From Polaribacter sp. BAL334 (GTDB lineage Bacteria; Bacteroidota; Bacteroidia; Flavobacteriales; Flavobacteriaceae), in the NCBI RefSeq assembly GCF_015767435.1, contig NZ_JADWOV010000271.1:1-64000 (forward strand): 64,000 bases of DNA, read 5' to 3'. Shown in pieces: positions 38,629 to 48,209 of this stretch. The stretch's first letter is position 1, and each line of letters begins with the position of its first letter. Made by a program: the position numbers and the translations under genes. The notes under the pieces are model-generated. The model had not been told where the DNA came from. It ran no database searches and saw only the letters and a program-made list of their open reading frames with translations.

Positions 38629-41028
38629 ATGAAAAAAATTATTTTCGTGCTTTTTTGTTTGAATTCCTTTTGGATTTTCAGTCAAAATTGTACGTACACA
38701 CTTAGTGGAATTGTGGTTGATTTTCATGATGGAACAACCATTGATAACGCAACAATTCAGATAAAAAACACCAACAAATTTGCAGTTACTGACAGCAAAG
38801 GAAACTTTGTGATCAGAAATGTTTGTGGTGGAAAAATCGCAATTGTTATTTCTCATATTGGTTGTAAAACATCTGAAAAAAGAATCGTTATTGATGCAAA
38901 TTATCAAGGAAAATTTCTGTTGGAACATCATTCAGAAACCTTAGAAGAGGTTTCTATTTTGGGAAAAACAAATCCAAAAAAAGTATCTTCAATTTCTGAA
39001 ACATTGTTGTCTAAAAAAGTGTTAGACAATTATAGTTCAGGTTCTTTGGGTGATGCTTTGAAAGAAATTGCAGGAGTTTCGTCTATAAATACTGGAAATG
39101 CGATTGTAAAACCCATGATTAATGGCATGCACAGCAGCAGAATTATTGTGATAAACAATGGTGTGCGTTTGCAAGACCAAGAATGGGGAATTGAGCATGC
39201 TCCAAACGTAGATTTGAATTCTTCAGAAAGTATTTCTGTCATCAAAGGTGCAGGAGCTTTGGCTTATGGAAGTGATGCCATTGGTGGAGTTGTGGTGTTG
39301 CATCCAAAAAATCCATTTAGAATTGATTCGCTTTTTGGAAGCACCATAACTGGATTTCAAACCAATGGAAATGGGTATAATGTGGCAACTTCATTGCATA
39401 AAACCTATCAAAAAGGCTATTATATGGATGCGAATACGTCTTATAAACGATTTGGAGATTTTAAAGCACCTGATTATTTTTTGACAAATACGGGTTCAAA
39501 TTCTCTTGGTTTTTCCTTAAATGGTGGTTTTAAAACTTTTGAAACTGGTTGGAATGTTTTTATTAGTTCCATTTCTAGTGAAATTGGGATTTTAGTAGCT
39601 TCGCATATTGGTGGAATTCAAGATTTGGTCAATGCTTTGAATAGCCAACAACCTTTGATTCAAAAAGAATTTAGCTACACCATTGACAATCCAAGACAAG
39701 AAGTCAATCATTTTATAGCCAAAGTGAATTATTTTAAACGTTTTCAAGGTTTGGGAAAACTCACGTTGCAATATGATTTTCAAGAAAATCAACGATTTGA
39801 ATATGACAGAAGAATTGGCGAGAATCGTTTTATTCCAGCTGTAGATTTGAATTTAAAAACGCATTCTACAACAGCTGATTTTTTGTTTGATGCCAACGAT
39901 TTATGGACTTTACAAACAGGAACATTGTTTCGTTTTCAAGAAAATTTTGCCAATCCTGCAACGGGTGTTCGTCGTTTAATTCCTGATTATCAGAAAATAG
40001 ATGTGGGTTTTTATTCGACGATCAAACATCAATATTCAGAAAATCTTTCTTTAGATTTTGGAGTGCGTTATGACTATAATTTCTACGATGTAAAAAAGTT
40101 TTATCAAACGAATCGTTGGAATGCTTTGGGATATGATGTCTTGTTTCCTGAATTGGTGATTCAAGATTTAGGAACCCAATTGTTGACAAATCCGAAGTTG
40201 AATTTTCACAATTTGGCGATTTCTCTAGGAGGAAAAAGAACGCTTTCTGAAGAAAATTCGCTGTTATTCAATTATACATTGGCAACAAGACCACCCAATA
40301 TTTCTGAATTGTTTAGTGATGGTTTGCACCATTCAGCTGCACGAATTGAGTTGGGCTCTTTGACCTTGAATTCTGAAAAATCAAATCGATTTTCGGTCTC
40401 ATTTTTAAGAGAAAACAGCTCCTTCACTTGGCAATTGGATACCTATGCAACCTTCTTAAAAGACTATATTTTCATTGCACCAAATGGCACAGAACAAACC
40501 ATAAGAGGAGCTTTTCCGAAATGGGAATATCGTCAAACAGATGCTTTTTTAACAGGTTTTGATTTGAATCTACAAAAGCAATTTTCAGAAAATTGGTTCT
40601 ATTCCTTGAATACTTCCTACATTTTTGCACAAGACACTAGAGAAAATGAACCTATTATTGATATGCCTCCTTTTCAAATGAGAAACTCCATTCGTTATCA
40701 AAATGAGAATTGGAAAAATTTTTCAAGTGCTTTGATTAGCGAATTTGTAGGAAGACAAAATCGTTTCCCAGATTTTAATTTTGAGCAATTTATAGCAACC
40801 ACTAATAGTACCGTTTTGGTAGATATTAGCACACCTCCAAACGCATTTCATCTGTTACATTTAAAAAACACTGTGGATTTTGATTGGGGAAAACATTCAA
40901 AAATCCAAGTGAGTATTAACGTTAACAATCTTCTCAATACATCTTACAGAGACTATTTGAATAGACTCCGATTTTTTGCAGATGATTTGGGAAGAAATTT
41001 TCAACTTCAAATAAAAATTAATTATTAA
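38629..41028 (+). CDS. TonB-dependent outer membrane receptor, probably for a metal or metal complex
   Basis: A 799-residue receptor. Signal peptide to about residue 19, then a CarboxypepD_reg-like domain (CTYTLSGIVVDFHDGTTIDN, ending SHIGCKT) to about 105. The plug domain spans about 115-225 (GSLGDALKEIAGVSSINTGN, then GAGALAYGSDAIGGVVVLHP). A 22-strand barrel follows, ending in FQLQIKINY with the terminal aromatic. The plug motif LQDQEWGIEHAPNVD is reminiscent of ZnuD-like zinc receptors, and the His-rich upstream protein points the same way. It takes energy from TonB-ExbBD encoded elsewhere. Substrate identity is inference. Confidence 0.88.
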   Translation: MKKIIFVLFCLNSFWIFSQNCTYTLSGIVVDFHDGTTIDNATIQIKNTNKFAVTDSKGNFVIRNVCGGKIAIVISHIGCKTSEKRIVIDANYQGKFLLEHHSETLEEVSILGKTNPKKVSSISETLLSKKVLDNYSSGSLGDALKEIAGVSSINTGNAIVKPMINGMHSSRIIVINNGVRLQDQEWGIEHAPNVDLNSSESISVIKGAGALAYGSDAIGGVVVLHPKNPFRIDSLFGSTITGFQTNGNGYNVATSLHKTYQKGYYMDANTSYKRFGDFKAPDYFLTNTGSNSLGFSLNGGFKTFETGWNVFISSISSEIGILVASHIGGIQDLVNALNSQQPLIQKEFSYTIDNPRQEVNHFIAKVNYFKRFQGLGKLTLQYDFQENQRFEYDRRIGENRFIPAVDLNLKTHSTTADFLFDANDLWTLQTGTLFRFQENFANPATGVRRLIPDYQKIDVGFYSTIKHQYSENLSLDFGVRYDYNFYDVKKFYQTNRWNALGYDVLFPELVIQDLGTQLLTNPKLNFHNLAISLGGKRTLSEENSLLFNYTLATRPPNISELFSDGLHHSAARIELGSLTLNSEKSNRFSVSFLRENSSFTWQLDTYATFLKDYIFIAPNGTEQTIRGAFPKWEYRQTDAFLTGFDLNLQKQFSENWFYSLNTSYIFAQDTRENEPIIDMPPFQMRNSIRYQNENWKNFSSALISEFVGRQNRFPDFNFEQFIATTNSTVLVDISTPPNAFHLLHLKNTVDFDWGKHSKIQVSINVNNLLNTSYRDYLNRLRFFADDLGRNFQLQIKINY

Positions 41029-41048
41029 AAATTTTAAAAAACAAAAAC

Positions 41049-41606
41049 ATGAAAAAATATATTTTAGTATTCAGTACAGTGATTGCAATGACGTTAACAT
41101 CTTGTTCAAATGATGATCCAGAAATCATCAATGAAGAGGAAGTAATCACCACATTAGAAGTAACTTTAATTCCACAAGGAGGAGGAACAACAGTAACTTT
41201 AGTAAGTCGTGATTTAGATGGAGATGGACCCAATGCTCCTGTTGTCTCTGTTTCTGGAGCATTACAAGCCAATAAAACTTATGCAGGTTCAGTTAAAGTG
41301 CTCAATGAAACAGAAACTCCCGCTGAAAACATTACTTTAGAAGTGGAAGGAGAAGGTTATGAGCACCAATTTTTCTATACATTTTCTAACAGTATTGCAA
41401 CTGTAGCTTATACTGATCAAGATAAAAATGGCAGACCAATTGGAATTACTTTTAATCTAACAACAACCTCTGCTGGTATTGGAAACCTGACAGTGACTTT
41501 GCGTCATGAACCAAATAAAACTGCTGCTGGAGTTGTTGCTGGAAACATCACCAATGCTGGTGGGGAAACAGATGTAGAAGTAAATTTTTCACTTACAGTA
41601 AATTAA
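41049..41606 (+). CDS. Lipoprotein partner of the TonB receptor
   Basis: A 185-residue lipoprotein (lipobox LTSC, Cys19). The mature part is a beta-rich domain with VTLIPQGGGTTVTLVSRDLDG, a Gln/Asn-rich middle and EGEGYEHQFFYTFSN near residue 105. It ends GNITNAGGETDVEVNFSLTV. I recall homologues annotated as periplasmic-binding-fold proteins and often found after TonB receptors. It starts 20 bases after the receptor stop and ends at a terminator, closing the three-gene unit. It may hand substrate to the receptor or bind it in the periplasm. Confidence 0.7.
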   Translation: MKKYILVFSTVIAMTLTSCSNDDPEIINEEEVITTLEVTLIPQGGGTTVTLVSRDLDGDGPNAPVVSVSGALQANKTYAGSVKVLNETETPAENITLEVEGEGYEHQFFYTFSNSIATVAYTDQDKNGRPIGITFNLTTTSAGIGNLTVTLRHEPNKTAAGVVAGNITNAGGETDVEVNFSLTVN

Positions 41607-43597: not shown

Positions 43598-43605
43598 TAC
43601 ATTTG
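43598..43605 (+). promoter_or_regulatory. Candidate -7 box of the anchor-B/MbnP/MbnH operon
   Basis: TACATTTG matches TAnnTTTG, 33 bases before the first start codon of the four-gene unit. Confidence 0.5.
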
Positions 43606-43638: not shown

Positions 43639-45054
43639 ATGAGAAAATTATTGATAGTATGTAGCATTATTTTACTGATTTCTTGTTCAAAAGAAGAAGT
43701 CAATAATGATATTGATACTGATGGAATTGCAAATAATATTGATAATTGTTTTCAAATTGCAAATCCAAATCAACAAGATACTGATGGAGATGGAATTGGT
43801 GATGCTTGTGATGATTTTAATGATTCTGACAAAGATGGCATTGCAGATGAAATAGATAATTGCCCTCAAATTGCAAATCCGAATCAAGAAGATACAGATG
43901 GAGATGGTTTTGGCGATGTTTGCGATACAACTCCTGCTAACAAAGTGCCTTGTGTTAATGGATTTGCAGGAAATTTTCCTTGTAAAGAGTATGATTTATT
44001 GTTACACATTCCTTTGTCTACTTTTAATGCAAGTTCTGGAAATGATTCTTGGGGTTGGACAGATACCAGAAACAATCGTGAATATGCCATAATAGGTCTG
44101 AATAATGGAACTGCATTTGTTGATATTACTGATACAGAAAATCCTGTTTATCTAGGAAAATTACCAACAGCCACTGTAAATAGTGATTGGCGAGACGTAA
44201 AAGTATATAACAATTATGCATTTATAGTCAGTGAAGCTACTAACCACGGAATGCAAGTTTTTGATTTAACAAAATTGAGATCAGTAACAAATCCTCCACA
44301 AAATTTTTCAGCGGAAACAACTTTTACAGGTTTTGGAAGTGCGCACAATATCGTTATCAATGATTCAAAAGGATATGCGTATCCTGTTGGAACATCTAGA
44401 AGTGGCCCTTTTGCAGGCGGACCTTTGTTTATCAACATTCAAAATCCATTAAATCCTATTGACGAAGGTGGATTTAGAAACTATAGTCATGATGCTCAAG
44501 TGGTTACTTATAATGGTCCAGATACAGAACATGTTGGAAAAGAAATATTGATTGGAAGCAATGAAACCGAAATTGTCATTGTAGATATTACTAACAAATC
44601 AAATCCTATCAAACTTTCTGATATCAATTATTCGAATGTAGGATATGTACATCAAGGTTGGTTTTCTCAAGATATGCGCTATTTTTTATTGGGAGATGAA
44701 TTGGATGAATTTCGTTTTGGAAATAAAACAAGAACCGTTATTTTTGATTTTTCTGATTTGGACAATCCCAAATTTCATTTTGATTATTTTGGACCAACAG
44801 ACGCCATTGATCACAATGGATATGTGAAAAATAATACTTTTTATTTGGCAAATTATACTGCAGGCGTCAGAATGATTGACATCACAAATATTGGGAATAA
44901 AAGCATTACTGAAATCGGTTTTTTTGATACCTATCCAACAAACAATATTGCTGGATTTAATGGTGCATGGAGTGTTTATCCCTATTTTGAAAGTGGAAAT
45001 ATTGTGATTAGTGATATTGATAATGGTTTGTTTATCATCAAAAAATCCAATTAA
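43639..45054 (+). CDS. Choice-of-anchor B lipoprotein with thrombospondin type 3 repeats
   Basis: A 471-residue lipoprotein (lipobox LISC, Cys16). Residues 20-100 hold two calcium-binding thrombospondin type 3 units: DTDGDGIGDACDD, DSDKDGIADEIDNC and DTDGDGFGDVCD. The rest is an LVIVD/choice-of-anchor B propeller with repeats such as AFVDITDTENPVYLGKLPT, VIVDITNKSNPIKLSD and VRMIDITNIGNKSITEI. It is probably cell-surface or periplasmic. First of four closely spaced exported genes (next gene 13 bases on). A receptor-like or scaffold role in the downstream copper/haem pair is inference. Confidence 0.83.
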   Translation: MRKLLIVCSIILLISCSKEEVNNDIDTDGIANNIDNCFQIANPNQQDTDGDGIGDACDDFNDSDKDGIADEIDNCPQIANPNQEDTDGDGFGDVCDTTPANKVPCVNGFAGNFPCKEYDLLLHIPLSTFNASSGNDSWGWTDTRNNREYAIIGLNNGTAFVDITDTENPVYLGKLPTATVNSDWRDVKVYNNYAFIVSEATNHGMQVFDLTKLRSVTNPPQNFSAETTFTGFGSAHNIVINDSKGYAYPVGTSRSGPFAGGPLFINIQNPLNPIDEGGFRNYSHDAQVVTYNGPDTEHVGKEILIGSNETEIVIVDITNKSNPIKLSDINYSNVGYVHQGWFSQDMRYFLLGDELDEFRFGNKTRTVIFDFSDLDNPKFHFDYFGPTDAIDHNGYVKNNTFYLANYTAGVRMIDITNIGNKSITEIGFFDTYPTNNIAGFNGAWSVYPYFESGNIVISDIDNGLFIIKKSN

Positions 45055-45067
45055 TGTTTCGTGATTC

Positions 45068-46390
45068 ATGAAAAAATGCTGGTTCTTTTTGGTGCTTATT
45101 TCCCTCTCCAATTGCTCTAAAAATGATGGCATTATTTTTCCTGAAATAGACTCAAATCTTACTAAAACTGAACTCATAAAAACCTTTGGAGGAACTAAAA
45201 ATGATAGTTTTCAGTCTGTTGTCAATACCACAGATGGAGGTTATGCCATTTTAGGATTTACACAAAGCAATGATTTTGACATTTCCGATAAAACTGATGA
45301 AAGCTTTGATTTTTGGCTGTTAAAATTTTCCGCAGACGATGTCTTGTTGTGGAGCAAAACTTTTGGAGGTTCAGAGGATGATAGAGGAGCAGACCTCATT
45401 GCCACCAATGATGGTGGTTTTGCGCTTTTTGGATTTAGCAAAAGCACCAATGGAAATCTAACAGAAAATGCTGGAAATCAAGATTTTTGGATCATAAAAA
45501 CCTCGTCAATTGGCGATATTTCTTGGCAAAAAACATTCGGTTTTTCTGGGGCAGATGTTGGTACATCATTGATTCAAACAACTGATAATGGGTTTTTAAT
45601 TATAGGTGTTTTAGATGTGACTGCTTCTGGAGGTCAAGGAAATAAAACAGCTCAAAAACATGCAGGTGGTGATGTTTGGGCGATAAAATTGGATGCTTCT
45701 GGAAACAAAGAATGGCAAAATTATTTTGGCGGAACAAATACTGACACTCCTTTTGGAATCGAAGAAACGGATGACAATTCGTTTATAATTATTGCATCTT
45801 CAGACAGCAATGACTTTAATATCACCAACAATAAAGGGCAATATGATTTCTGGATTCTAAAAATTGCTAGTGATGGAACTCTCATTTGGCAAAAAAACTT
45901 TGGTGGATCAGAAATTGAAGAACCTAGAGGAATTTGCAAAACCAATGATGGCAATTTTTTGATTGTTGGAGACACTCGCAGTTCAGATCAGGATATTTCT
46001 AAAAATAATGGTGCTGCAGATATTTGGTTGATAAAAATATCTCCTGAAGGAGAATTGTTATGGGAAAAAACAGTTGGTGGAAGTAGTTTTGATGCAGCAA
46101 GAGCTATTTTTAAATCTAAAAAAAATGGGTATTTCATTGCTGGAAATTCAAGAAGTTCAAACAATGGATTTGAAAATAAAGGTCAAAATGATGCTTGGAT
46201 TTTGAAAATTGATGAATTGGGAAATCTCGTTTGGCAAAAATTTATAGGTGGCTCTGAAAATGATTTTTTGTTTGATATTACTGAACTTTCAAACAATTCA
46301 ATCATTGCCGTTGGCGAAAGTTATAGTGAAAATCAAGATATTACTGAAAATAAAGGATTTTCTGATGCGTTATTGATAAAAATAAAATGA
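45068..46390 (+). CDS. Repeat-containing lipoprotein, probable beta propeller
   Basis: A 440-residue lipoprotein (lipobox LSNC, Cys16) made of about seven repeats of roughly 55 residues. Each has the form KTFGGSEDDRG...TNDGGFALFG, then FWLLKFSADDVLLWSK (first repeat) or equivalents such as FWILKIASDGTLIWQK. The repeats resemble delta-60/SBBP-type propellers. The seven-fold copy number suits a closed propeller. No catalytic residues are seen. The gene ends with an ATGA overlap into the MbnP-like gene, so translation is coupled. Confidence 0.78.
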   Translation: MKKCWFFLVLISLSNCSKNDGIIFPEIDSNLTKTELIKTFGGTKNDSFQSVVNTTDGGYAILGFTQSNDFDISDKTDESFDFWLLKFSADDVLLWSKTFGGSEDDRGADLIATNDGGFALFGFSKSTNGNLTENAGNQDFWIIKTSSIGDISWQKTFGFSGADVGTSLIQTTDNGFLIIGVLDVTASGGQGNKTAQKHAGGDVWAIKLDASGNKEWQNYFGGTNTDTPFGIEETDDNSFIIIASSDSNDFNITNNKGQYDFWILKIASDGTLIWQKNFGGSEIEEPRGICKTNDGNFLIVGDTRSSDQDISKNNGAADIWLIKISPEGELLWEKTVGGSSFDAARAIFKSKKNGYFIAGNSRSSNNGFENKGQNDAWILKIDELGNLVWQKFIGGSENDFLFDITELSNNSIIAVGESYSENQDITENKGFSDALLIKIK

Positions 46391-47145
46391 AATTTATGAA
46401 AAAAATAATGTCTTTTTGTGTTGGCCTTTTTTTGCTGTTGGGATGTGAAAAAAAAGACTGTTGTACCAATTTAGAACCCATTACAGTTACACTACAATTT
46501 ACTCACAATTGGGATGGAATTCCCATAAATTCAAGTGATTTTACTACTTTCAAATTCACAACTGAACATGGAGAACAAATCAGTATTGAGCAATTGAGAT
46601 ATCTCGTGTCGAGAATAAAAATTGGTAATTTTGAAAAAAACTATCAATTGATAAATGTTGGCGAAAACACAGGTCTTGAATTAGTAATACCCCAAATTCC
46701 ACAAGGAAATCAATTTCTAAAATTTACTTTTGGATTTACTGATGCTGACAATATTGATGGCATTTATCCCGATTTGAATTCTACATCATTCAATGTTCCA
46801 ATGATGATGGGAGGAGGATATCATTACATGCAATTTGACGGAAAATACAAAGACTCAAACAATCAAAATGCAAATTTTAACTACCACACAATCAGAGCTG
46901 TAAATATGTCAAATCCAATGAATTTGATTTTGGAAGACACTTCTTTTGAAGTTGAAATTGGCACTTTCGAGTTGTCAAAAAACACCACCATCGAAATCAA
47001 AATGAATGTGGCAGAGTGGTTTAAAAACCCGAATTTATGGGATTTAAATGTGTTAAATTCGGTTTTAATGCCCAATTTTGATGCTCAAAAAATGATGAGT
47101 GAAAATGGTAGAAATGTGTTTTCTGTAGGTACAATTTCAAATTAA
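46387..47145 (+). CDS. MbnP-like copper-binding lipoprotein
   Basis: A 252-residue lipoprotein of the MbnP family. It has LQFTHNWDGIPI near residue 38, a Gln/Tyr-rich middle, GGGYHYMQFDGKYKDSNN near 140, and the C-terminal WFKNPNLWDLN with NGRNVFSVGTI at the end. In methanotroph MbnP, His residues and a Trp-derived kynurenine bind copper, the kynurenine being made by the partner MbnH. His residues and two Trp in the matching C-terminal segment are present here. The true start may be the ATG at 46396 rather than 46387. The gene overlaps its upstream neighbour (ATGA), and the MbnH-like gene follows 2 bases later. Confidence 0.78.
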   Translation: MKFMKKIMSFCVGLFLLLGCEKKDCCTNLEPITVTLQFTHNWDGIPINSSDFTTFKFTTEHGEQISIEQLRYLVSRIKIGNFEKNYQLINVGENTGLELVIPQIPQGNQFLKFTFGFTDADNIDGIYPDLNSTSFNVPMMMGGGYHYMQFDGKYKDSNNQNANFNYHTIRAVNMSNPMNLILEDTSFEVEIGTFELSKNTTIEIKMNVAEWFKNPNLWDLNVLNSVLMPNFDAQKMMSENGRNVFSVGTISN

Positions 47146-47147
47146 GA

Positions 47148-48209
47148 ATGAACAAAAATTGGATTTTCATTACTGCTTTTTTTCTTTTGATGAATTGCTC
47201 CTCAAAAGAGGAAGAATTGTATCTTCCAATAACCTATAATTTAGAAATTCCTTCGCTTTTTTCAGAAAAATTGATTGCGCCAGTTATTCCTGCAAACAAT
47301 CCTTTAACACAAGAAGGTGTTGCCCTTGGAAAAAAATTATTTTTCGAAAAATTACTTTCAGGCGATAATTCACAATCTTGTGCTTCTTGTCACAATCCAC
47401 AAAATGCTTTTTCAGATTCGCAACAATTTAGTGTTGGAATTGACGGAAAGAAAGGAATCAGAAATGCCATGCCTTTGTTCAATTTAGCTTGGAATTTTGA
47501 CGAACTTTTTAATTGGGATGGAAGCGAATTTAGTTTAGAAAATCAAGCTTTTGAGCCTGTAAGAAATCCTATTGAAATGCATGCAACTTGGAAAAATGTC
47601 GCTCAAAAGTTGCAAAATCATCCTGAATACCCAACGTTATTTAAACTTGCTTTTGGAACTTCAACTATTGATTCTGTCTTAATTACCAAAGCAATTGCAC
47701 AATTTGAAAGAACATTAATTTCAGGAAACTCAAAATTTGACCGATTTTTACGAGGAGAAACCTCTTTAACTCCTGAAGAAGAAAGCGGTTTTAATGTTTT
47801 TATGGACGAAGCAAAAGGCGATTGTTTTCACTGTCATGGAAGCAATAACAATCCACTTTGGACTGATAATTTGTTCCATAATAACGGTTTAGATACAAAT
47901 TTTACTGATTTGGGTTTGGGTGCAAAAACAGGAGATCCTAAAGATAATGGGAAATTCAAATCGCCATCCATCAGAAATTTAGCGTTTACAGCACCTTATA
48001 TGCATGATGGACGATTTGCTACTTTAGAAGAGGTGATCAATCATTATTCTGAAGGATTACGATTTTCTTCAACAATTGATCCTTTAATGAAAAAGGTTTC
48101 GCAAGGTGGCGTGCAATTAACAACCAAAGACAAAGCAGATTTAAAAGCGTTCTTGCTCACTTTGTCAGATTTTGAGTTTATCAACAATCCCAATTTTAAG
48201 AATCCATAA
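47148..48209 (+). CDS. MbnH/MauG-like di-haem cytochrome c peroxidase family lipoprotein
   Basis: A 353-residue lipoprotein (lipobox LMNC, Cys17) with two haem-c sites: CASCH at residues 78-82 and CFHCH near 225. Family segments are NPLTQEGVALGKKLFFEK, VSVGIDGKKG-like QQFSVGIDGKKGIRN, FKSPSIRNLAFTAPYMHDGR and LEEVINHYSEG. Such enzymes either reduce peroxide or, as MauG and MbnH, oxidise Trp residues in a partner protein. Placement right after an MbnP-like gene favours the MbnH role. It ends the four-gene unit. Confidence 0.85.
   Translation: MNKNWIFITAFFLLMNCSSKEEELYLPITYNLEIPSLFSEKLIAPVIPANNPLTQEGVALGKKLFFEKLLSGDNSQSCASCHNPQNAFSDSQQFSVGIDGKKGIRNAMPLFNLAWNFDELFNWDGSEFSLENQAFEPVRNPIEMHATWKNVAQKLQNHPEYPTLFKLAFGTSTIDSVLITKAIAQFERTLISGNSKFDRFLRGETSLTPEEESGFNVFMDEAKGDCFHCHGSNNNPLWTDNLFHNNGLDTNFTDLGLGAKTGDPKDNGKFKSPSIRNLAFTAPYMHDGRFATLEEVINHYSEGLRFSSTIDPLMKKVSQGGVQLTTKDKADLKAFLLTLSDFEFINNPNFKNP

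Follow-up and report, generated by a model that had tools for sequence, protein, structure and literature searches.

An MbnP/MbnH-like pair without the MbnP tryptophan in a lipoprotein operon of Polaribacter

The stretch of DNA analysed here (the window) comprises 64,000 nucleotides of Polaribacter sp. BAL334, positions 1 to 64,000 of contig NZ_JADWOV010000271.1. Between positions 43639 and 48209 it carries four tightly packed genes, all on the plus strand: a choice-of-anchor B gene (anchB), a second propeller gene, a gene for an MbnP-like protein and a gene for an MbnH-like di-haem protein. The first two genes lie 13 bp apart, the second and third overlap by 4 bp, and 2 bp separate the last two. 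An N-terminal signal peptide and lipobox-like cysteine were read by eye in each product; all four are probably surface or outer-membrane lipoproteins. A preliminary description of the locus as a coupled, exported operon is thereby confirmed (Table 1). Of particular interest is the MbnP-like protein: the tryptophan expected of the family is absent, while its likely copper-binding residues and its partner enzyme are kept.

Table 1. Positions of the operon genes, candidate functional residues and promoter element in the window
Feature	Position	Strand	Remark
Candidate Bacteroidota-type -7 promoter element (TAnnTTTG)	43598..43605	+	33 bp 5′ of the anchB start; consensus match only
Choice-of-anchor B lipoprotein (anchB)	43639..45054	+	TSP3 repeats and beta-propeller; His quartet H236/H284/H338/H392
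SBBP/CylK-like propeller lipoprotein	45068..46390	+	
MbnP-like lipoprotein	46387..47145	+	V137 type
F135-N136-V137	46789..46797	+	Site of M-x-W or W-x-W in relatives; no Trp left
His146	46822..46824	+	Invariant in operon-type MbnP; retained after loss of MbnH as well
His167	46885..46887	+	Counterpart of the invariant MbnP His (92/92 partnered)
W211 ... W218	47017..47040	+	Invariant Trps of V137-type MbnP
Met228	47068..47070	+	Counterpart of the invariant C-terminal Met in WxW-type MbnP; lost in 4/4 without operon-type MbnH
MbnH-like di-haem lipoprotein	47148..48209	+	
First haem motif CASCH	47379..47393	+	Residues 78-82
Second haem motif CFHCH	47823..47837	+	Residues 226-230
Tyr300	48045..48047	+	Aligned with Tyr312 of MbnH 6e1c

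The MbnP-like protein belongs to PF20243 (80 bits; cut-off 27). Its AlphaFold2 model (mean predicted local distance difference test score, pLDDT, 92.1) was matched by VIA-align to 7l6g, the MbnP of Methylosinus trichosporium OB3b, with a Z score of 15.6 over 206 aligned residues (root-mean-square deviation 3.4), the next entry scoring 7.6; Foldseek gave a probability of 1.00 only to six chains of 7l6g and at most 0.41 in the other rows shown. As judged from the model, the protein has the MbnP fold. An NCBIfam scan at E ≤ 1e-3 returned no match, TIGR04052 (MbnP_like_WxW; cut-off 140) included, and a close relative (L035) did not match TIGR04052 at E ≤ 0.1. The same family model exceeds its cut-off for the plasmid-borne MbnPs of Methylocystis, Pseudoalteromonas and Paracoccus (three of three scanned), and a WxW paralogue from the genus of the window (L074) reaches 51 bits, below the cut-off. 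A third type of MbnP occurs in Flavobacteriales outside the family (L178, L186 and others): it has the signature M-x-W-P...GGGYHYMK, with one Trp rather than WxW, and is likewise paired with MbnH; two examples tested (L050, L071) had no NCBIfam match at E ≤ 0.1.

The partner enzyme matches the di-haem CCP_MauG family at 200.5 bits and TIGR04039, the MbnH model, at 268 bits (E 1.1e-79), below the cut-off of 362.85; its best match by sequence in the PDB is MbnH 6e1c (E 8e-55). Both CXXCH motifs, W123, E143 and Y300 are present in 75/75 distinct operon-type MbnH sequences and align with those of 6e1c; the Tyr is the axial haem ligand in MauG and MbnH. W238 is equally invariant in the operon type (75/75 distinct), but is Phe in 27 of 28 sequences of the other type and Leu in 6e1c. 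The MbnP-like/MbnH-like pair recognised earlier is thus real. In passing, PLSDB names four plasmid MbnH genes (in L194, L195, L196 and L198) ‘methanobactin export MATE transporter MbnM’, and in L194 mbnM itself is labelled ‘hypothetical protein’; these labels look wrong. The genome of the window (3.3 Mb over 329 contigs; completeness 99.93%) contains one PF20243 protein, one match to the operon MbnH at E ≤ 1e-3 and none to the MbnB family (PF05114). For that family, the earlier remark that methanobactin genes are lacking is borne out.

In a survey of 116 genomes of the genus, MbnH was accepted as operon type at high score, together with fragments at contig ends. All four genes are present in 82 of these genomes and absent from 22; a further 4 have only MbnP and 5 only anchB, and the remaining 3 hold partial sets, two of them being drafts at 70% and 57% completeness. 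In relatives the order thiL (divergent), anchB, propeller, MbnP, MbnH, sufA, sufB is mostly kept. Given this recurrence and the presence of all four genes in 82 genomes, the operon is no chance association. In 7 of the 82 (G005, G009, G069, G070, G106, G107, G119) MbnH is separated from MbnP by 20 to 171 kb or sits on a different contig, so that the pair is co-inherited even when apart. G009 (L074, L075) has its MbnH with sufA/sufB some 19 kb from anchB-propeller-MbnP and on the opposite strand, as if an inversion had split the pair; H167 and M228 are still present there. Outside the genus, propeller, MbnP and MbnH stand together in 70/70 loci of the family (these loci are too short to show anchB), and anchB-propeller occurs at the same locus without MbnP and MbnH in three genomes of two other genera. 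The operon therefore looks like two units, anchB-propeller and MbnP-MbnH. The coupling of the pair to two propeller lipoproteins, as previously described, holds as adjacency; the anchB and propeller genes are nevertheless not bound to the pair, as these three genomes show. Among the matches listed for 247 Bacteroidota genomes, inspected by eye, anchB and MbnP came within 10 kb of each other only in three genomes with the operon type (G000, G102, G192); elsewhere the closest approach of the two was some 16 kb in one case and 23 kb in another.

The Trp of MbnP that is oxidised by MbnH corresponds to residue 137 of the window protein. A mixed alignment through intermediates places the first Trp of the WxW motif (W171 of L194) opposite Val137. 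The protein has three tryptophans only, W42, W211 and W218, and none between residues 43 and 210. In the genus, Val137 is carried by every one of the 83 distinct sequences (the window included) that come from a genome with operon-type MbnH. At residue 135 the same sequences have Phe (65), Trp (17) or Leu (1), and 66 of the 83 have no Trp anywhere in residues 120-165. Our literature searches turned up no description of a Trp-less MbnP. A first, ungapped alignment had put the first WxW Trp at residue 139, where all operon-type proteins compared in it lack Trp too; that placement is ruled out by sequences with GMYWP or DMYWP (L179, L184), which reveal an insertion just after the Trp and assign it to residue 137.

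The loss looks derived, since the operon keeps Trp137 in 25 of the 70 family loci: residues 135/137 are W/V in 37, W/W in 25 and F/V in 8, compared with M/W in 13 and F/W in 3 of 16 outgroup rows. On a tree of MbnP from which the columns around residues 137 and 211 had been removed, the V137 rows form one clade (74 rows, support 98; a quick tree with SH-aLRT, an approximate likelihood-ratio test, as its sole support measure), and it is for this reason that the loss appears both single and old. Rows for trees and covariation required a matching MbnP and an MbnH over 300 amino acids, which excluded L173, L185 and the WxW paralogues L074, L076, L084, L085 and L087. The MbnH tree disagrees with that of MbnP, requiring seven changes at residue 137 among operon-type rows; a test of the W137 rows as one clade on the MbnH data gave an approximately unbiased p-value (p-AU) of 0.0503, and exchange of MbnP between lineages is therefore not shown. 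That W137 and W211 are alternative targets was considered on the basis of covariation seen on the MbnH tree; on the MbnP tree each residue changed only once, and the proposal is not made here.

What, then, remains of the metal site? Five plasmid MbnPs, the three scanned with TIGR04052 among them, share an invariant WxW, the His of an HLGS motif (H204 of L194), a second His (H154 of L194) and the Met of a C-M motif near the C-terminus (M266 of L194), which is their sole invariant Met besides the start. In the mixed alignment H204 and M266 fall opposite His167 and Met228. Both are kept in 92/92 partnered sequences (the main genus set of 83 and nine further loci), a sequence counting as partnered if its genome encodes an operon-type MbnH, adjacent or not. 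One sequence without an in-frame start codon (L045) was left out of the count, though read in frame it too has V, H and M at these sites; L086, which likewise lacks a start codon, was also read in frame. The preliminary description had proposed a kynurenine copper site and named loss of the modified Trp, or of its copper-ligand His, in an alignment to MbnP as evidence against it. The Trp is lost and the kynurenine site falls with it; the His is not lost.

Four genomes of the genus (G008, G017, G018, G115) keep the MbnP-like gene and have lost operon-type MbnH, propeller and anchB altogether; a tree of thiL and sufB from 29 loci places them in two separate groups. In these four proteins residue 228 is I, T, T and T, and residue 167 is Y, H, D and H. 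Because H167 and M228 are complete in partnered sequences and M228 is lost in all four of these, H167 in two, the pocket appears to be under joint selection with its partners, though with no kynurenine at the established position. Of the positions that show at least 93% conservation across the 92 partnered sequences, N131, P138, G143, K153, D184 and M228 differ in three or more of the four, whereas F38, W42, Y72, G116, Y145, H146, G152, W211, W218, Q234, N240 and F245, among others, are unchanged in all. The changed positions surround the presumed metal pocket in sequence. That pocket positions N131, P138, G143, D184, M228 and, in part, H167 change where MbnH, propeller and anchB are gone supports the view that the pocket is functional and relies on these partners. 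Val137 is moreover accompanied by T185 (74/74), I169 (72/74) and mostly R170 (68/74), where the W137 type carries N185 (25/25), G169 (25/25) and T170 (23/25). This speaks for a pocket that was rebuilt, with changed function, rather than one in decay.

The operon is flanked upstream by a divergent thiL and downstream by sufA, which has its own -7-like element (TATATTTG). The element before anchB matches what we assume to be the Bacteroidota-type -7 motif, TAnnTTTG; similar elements precede the operon in many, though not all, of the 25 upstream sequences compared, and no other common motif was seen in them by eye. The three named contigs found belong to a metagenome-assembled genome (MAG) of Flavobacteriaceae (93% protein identity) and to two Polaribacter MAGs (80 and 76%); the genome groups with Polaribacter-like Flavobacteriaceae. 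Further upstream, at 38629-41606, lie a gene for a TonB-dependent receptor, whose matches to models of haem, copper and ZnuD receptors are weak and all far below cut-off, and one for a 185-amino-acid lipoprotein without a family. The two also occur upstream in two Polaribacter MAGs (L192, L193); no such pair was seen beside the operon in stretches of up to 19.5 kb from relatives.

We tentatively favour, at somewhat short of an even chance, the view that the pair is a derived version of MbnP/MbnH with a rebuilt His/Met metal site, probably for copper, its MbnH having been kept for another oxidation or a redox role. On this view His167 and Met228 would still hold a metal in the pocket, Cu(I) being the likeliest, with no kynurenine involved, and MbnH would be retained to work on the pocket or with it, either by oxidising a different residue or by peroxide-dependent exchange of electrons with the metal. 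With the Trp gone but other likely copper-binding residues and the enzyme retained, MbnH probably has an activity that has yet to be described. That the kynurenine site was abandoned in this widespread flavobacterial branch, and that MbnH there makes some other protein-derived modification at a His/Met surface pocket that has been rebuilt, its target being another Trp or other residue of MbnP or else a propeller, is possible but doubtful. The suggestion of a copper system independent of methanobactin stands as to the pair itself, the missing MbnB gene and the retained His/Met candidates; it does not stand as to kynurenine.

Several observations weigh against a rebuilt His/Met site. H167 and M228 are candidate ligands placed by alignment, and that they face each other is a presumption; the assignment of M228 in particular comes from a MAFFT alignment bridged by intermediates, and direct alignment of the two extremes with hhalign left that end unaligned. 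Not every conserved His is kept: H154 of L194, the second invariant His of the five WxW-type proteins, aligns with Ile123. The cases lacking operon-type MbnH amount to two loss events, in each of which anchB and propeller went too, so that co-loss is not attributable to MbnH alone, and the four genomes keep other MbnH/MauG-like proteins. Finally, no position of MbnH clearly tracks the type of MbnP (best 0.34 bit of 0.82).

A somewhat unlikely alternative is that MbnH has been re-aimed at another Trp of the MbnP-like protein (W211 or W218, or W135 in relatives), yielding kynurenine or another product in the same pocket. The enzyme has the aligned catalytic set of MbnH, along with a W238 that is invariant in the operon type; W218 is present in all 99 operon-type rows and in 0/16 outgroup rows; and residue 211 is Trp in 74/74 V137 rows, but Phe or Leu in 12 of 25 W137 rows. 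The series M/W, W/W, W/V, F/V at residues 135/137 could even represent a stepwise shift, if the order is as we suppose. However, residues 137 and 211 each change once on the MbnP tree and so offer no independent replicates, and the persistence of W42, W211 and W218 in all four proteins without operon-type MbnH is what would be seen of structural residues, a weak argument in itself.

It is also conceivable, although we consider it clearly unlikely, that the MbnP-like protein has no metal function and serves as the docking partner of a plain di-haem peroxidase that removes H2O2 at the surface. The TIGR04039 score below cut-off, the want of any NCBIfam model for the MbnP-like protein, the lost Trp and the seven genomes with a distant MbnH, in which tight coupling is evidently unnecessary, all agree with such a role. 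Yet the enzyme has Tyr at residue 300 where the peroxidase 1iqc has Met (both presumably haem ligands), and H167 and M228 are fully conserved only in company with operon-type MbnH, which fits a functional site.

Could the substrate instead be a propeller protein, with MbnP delivering metal? A comparable action has been proposed for MauG-like proteins beside the copper enzyme MtoX; MtoX-SCO1-MauG clusters with a proposed His-liganded copper site have been reported (PMC5739008). The anchB protein matches TIGR04312 at 562.9 bits (cut-off 100) and has TSP_3 repeats; its model (mean pLDDT 87.3) is a propeller by its fold matches, and 36 anchB proteins from operon loci all share a His quartet and a WGW motif. 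Foldseek ranks first a phosphotriesterase, 5hrm (E 1.7e-10), which we take to be a propeller with a metal centre. VIA-align cannot tell 5hrm from WD40 propellers, many of which also score about 30, and the function of anchB therefore does not follow from its fold; the SBP56 fold of MtoX is not among the matches listed by Foldseek or VIA-align (50 rows). A plasmid of Pseudoalteromonas xiamenensis (L197) carries a choice-of-anchor B gene divergent from a WxW-type MbnP-MbnH pair, with 82 bp between them, but the second Trp of WGW is His in this protein. The quartet is kept in most choice-of-anchor B proteins compared from other genera and families, and quartet and WGW alike in many from genomes without MbnP matches. 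The site is also intact in the three genomes with anchB-propeller but no MbnP/MbnH (L200, L202, L203) and where anchB stands alone (L201), which weakens the case for anchB as a substrate of MbnH. In the genus, all five anchB proteins from genomes without operon-type MbnP/MbnH have lost one or more of the four His (four in L159, three each in L205 and L206, one each in L160 and L204), and these genomes have no propeller match at E ≤ 1e-60; in L159, L160, L205 and L206, where propeller, MbnP and MbnH are gone, anchB is followed by a gene for a secreted protein of 636-639 amino acids, M1-peptidase-like by its start. The second propeller protein has a single NCBIfam match, an SBBP-propeller lipoprotein model at 56.4 of a cut-off of 400, and matches residues 415-621 of CylK (E 2.7e-35), presumably its propeller. 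On balance a propeller target is improbable. The canonical kynurenine site of MbnP, for which family and partner are right, is scarcely credible given that there is no Trp at or near the site and that the canonical position is already refuted by sequence.

If a stable Trp-less clade with MbnH holds, then either the pocket binds metal without kynurenine or MbnH has another substrate. The operon's own W137 and V137 types provide a built-in comparison, and both alternatives are testable with two small proteins.

With MbnP of Methylosinus the operon protein shares the fold, the MbnH partner, the aligned invariant His and the C-terminal Met. It differs in lacking WxW, with Val at the first Trp, in not matching TIGR04052, in having HTIR rather than HxG after the ligand His, in having Ile for the second conserved His and in a genome without an MbnB-family gene. 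In work attributed to Manesis in 2021, the copper site of MbnP is said to consist of His, Met, solvent and kynurenine, with kynurenine presented as needed for copper binding. With MbnH (6e1c; TIGR04039) the enzyme shares two CXXCH motifs and Tyr, Trp and Glu at aligned positions; it differs in falling below the TIGR04039 cut-off and in an invariant W238 where 6e1c has Leu. MbnP/MbnH pairs are known beyond methanobactin producers (PMC3621798), and also near copper genes (PMC9426467). MopE/SACCP and CorA/CorB of methanotrophs likewise combine a surface copper protein (here a prediction) with a co-transcribed di-haem peroxidase; as described in PMC3912023, copper is bound in CorA and MopE by kynurenine and two His, unlike in the operon protein, with the peroxidase gene adjoining; the likeness is taken from that description. 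The clusters of MtoX, SCO1/SenC and MauG (PMC5739008) group a MauG-like gene with those for a copper chaperone and for a protein with a proposed copper-His site, the latter two being from protein families different from those of the operon. Taken together, the MbnP/MbnH family is already known, and the pair described here lacks the residue that defines its known chemistry: what the comparison of sequences most likely points to is a metal site that has been rebuilt, with its MbnH put to a new task.

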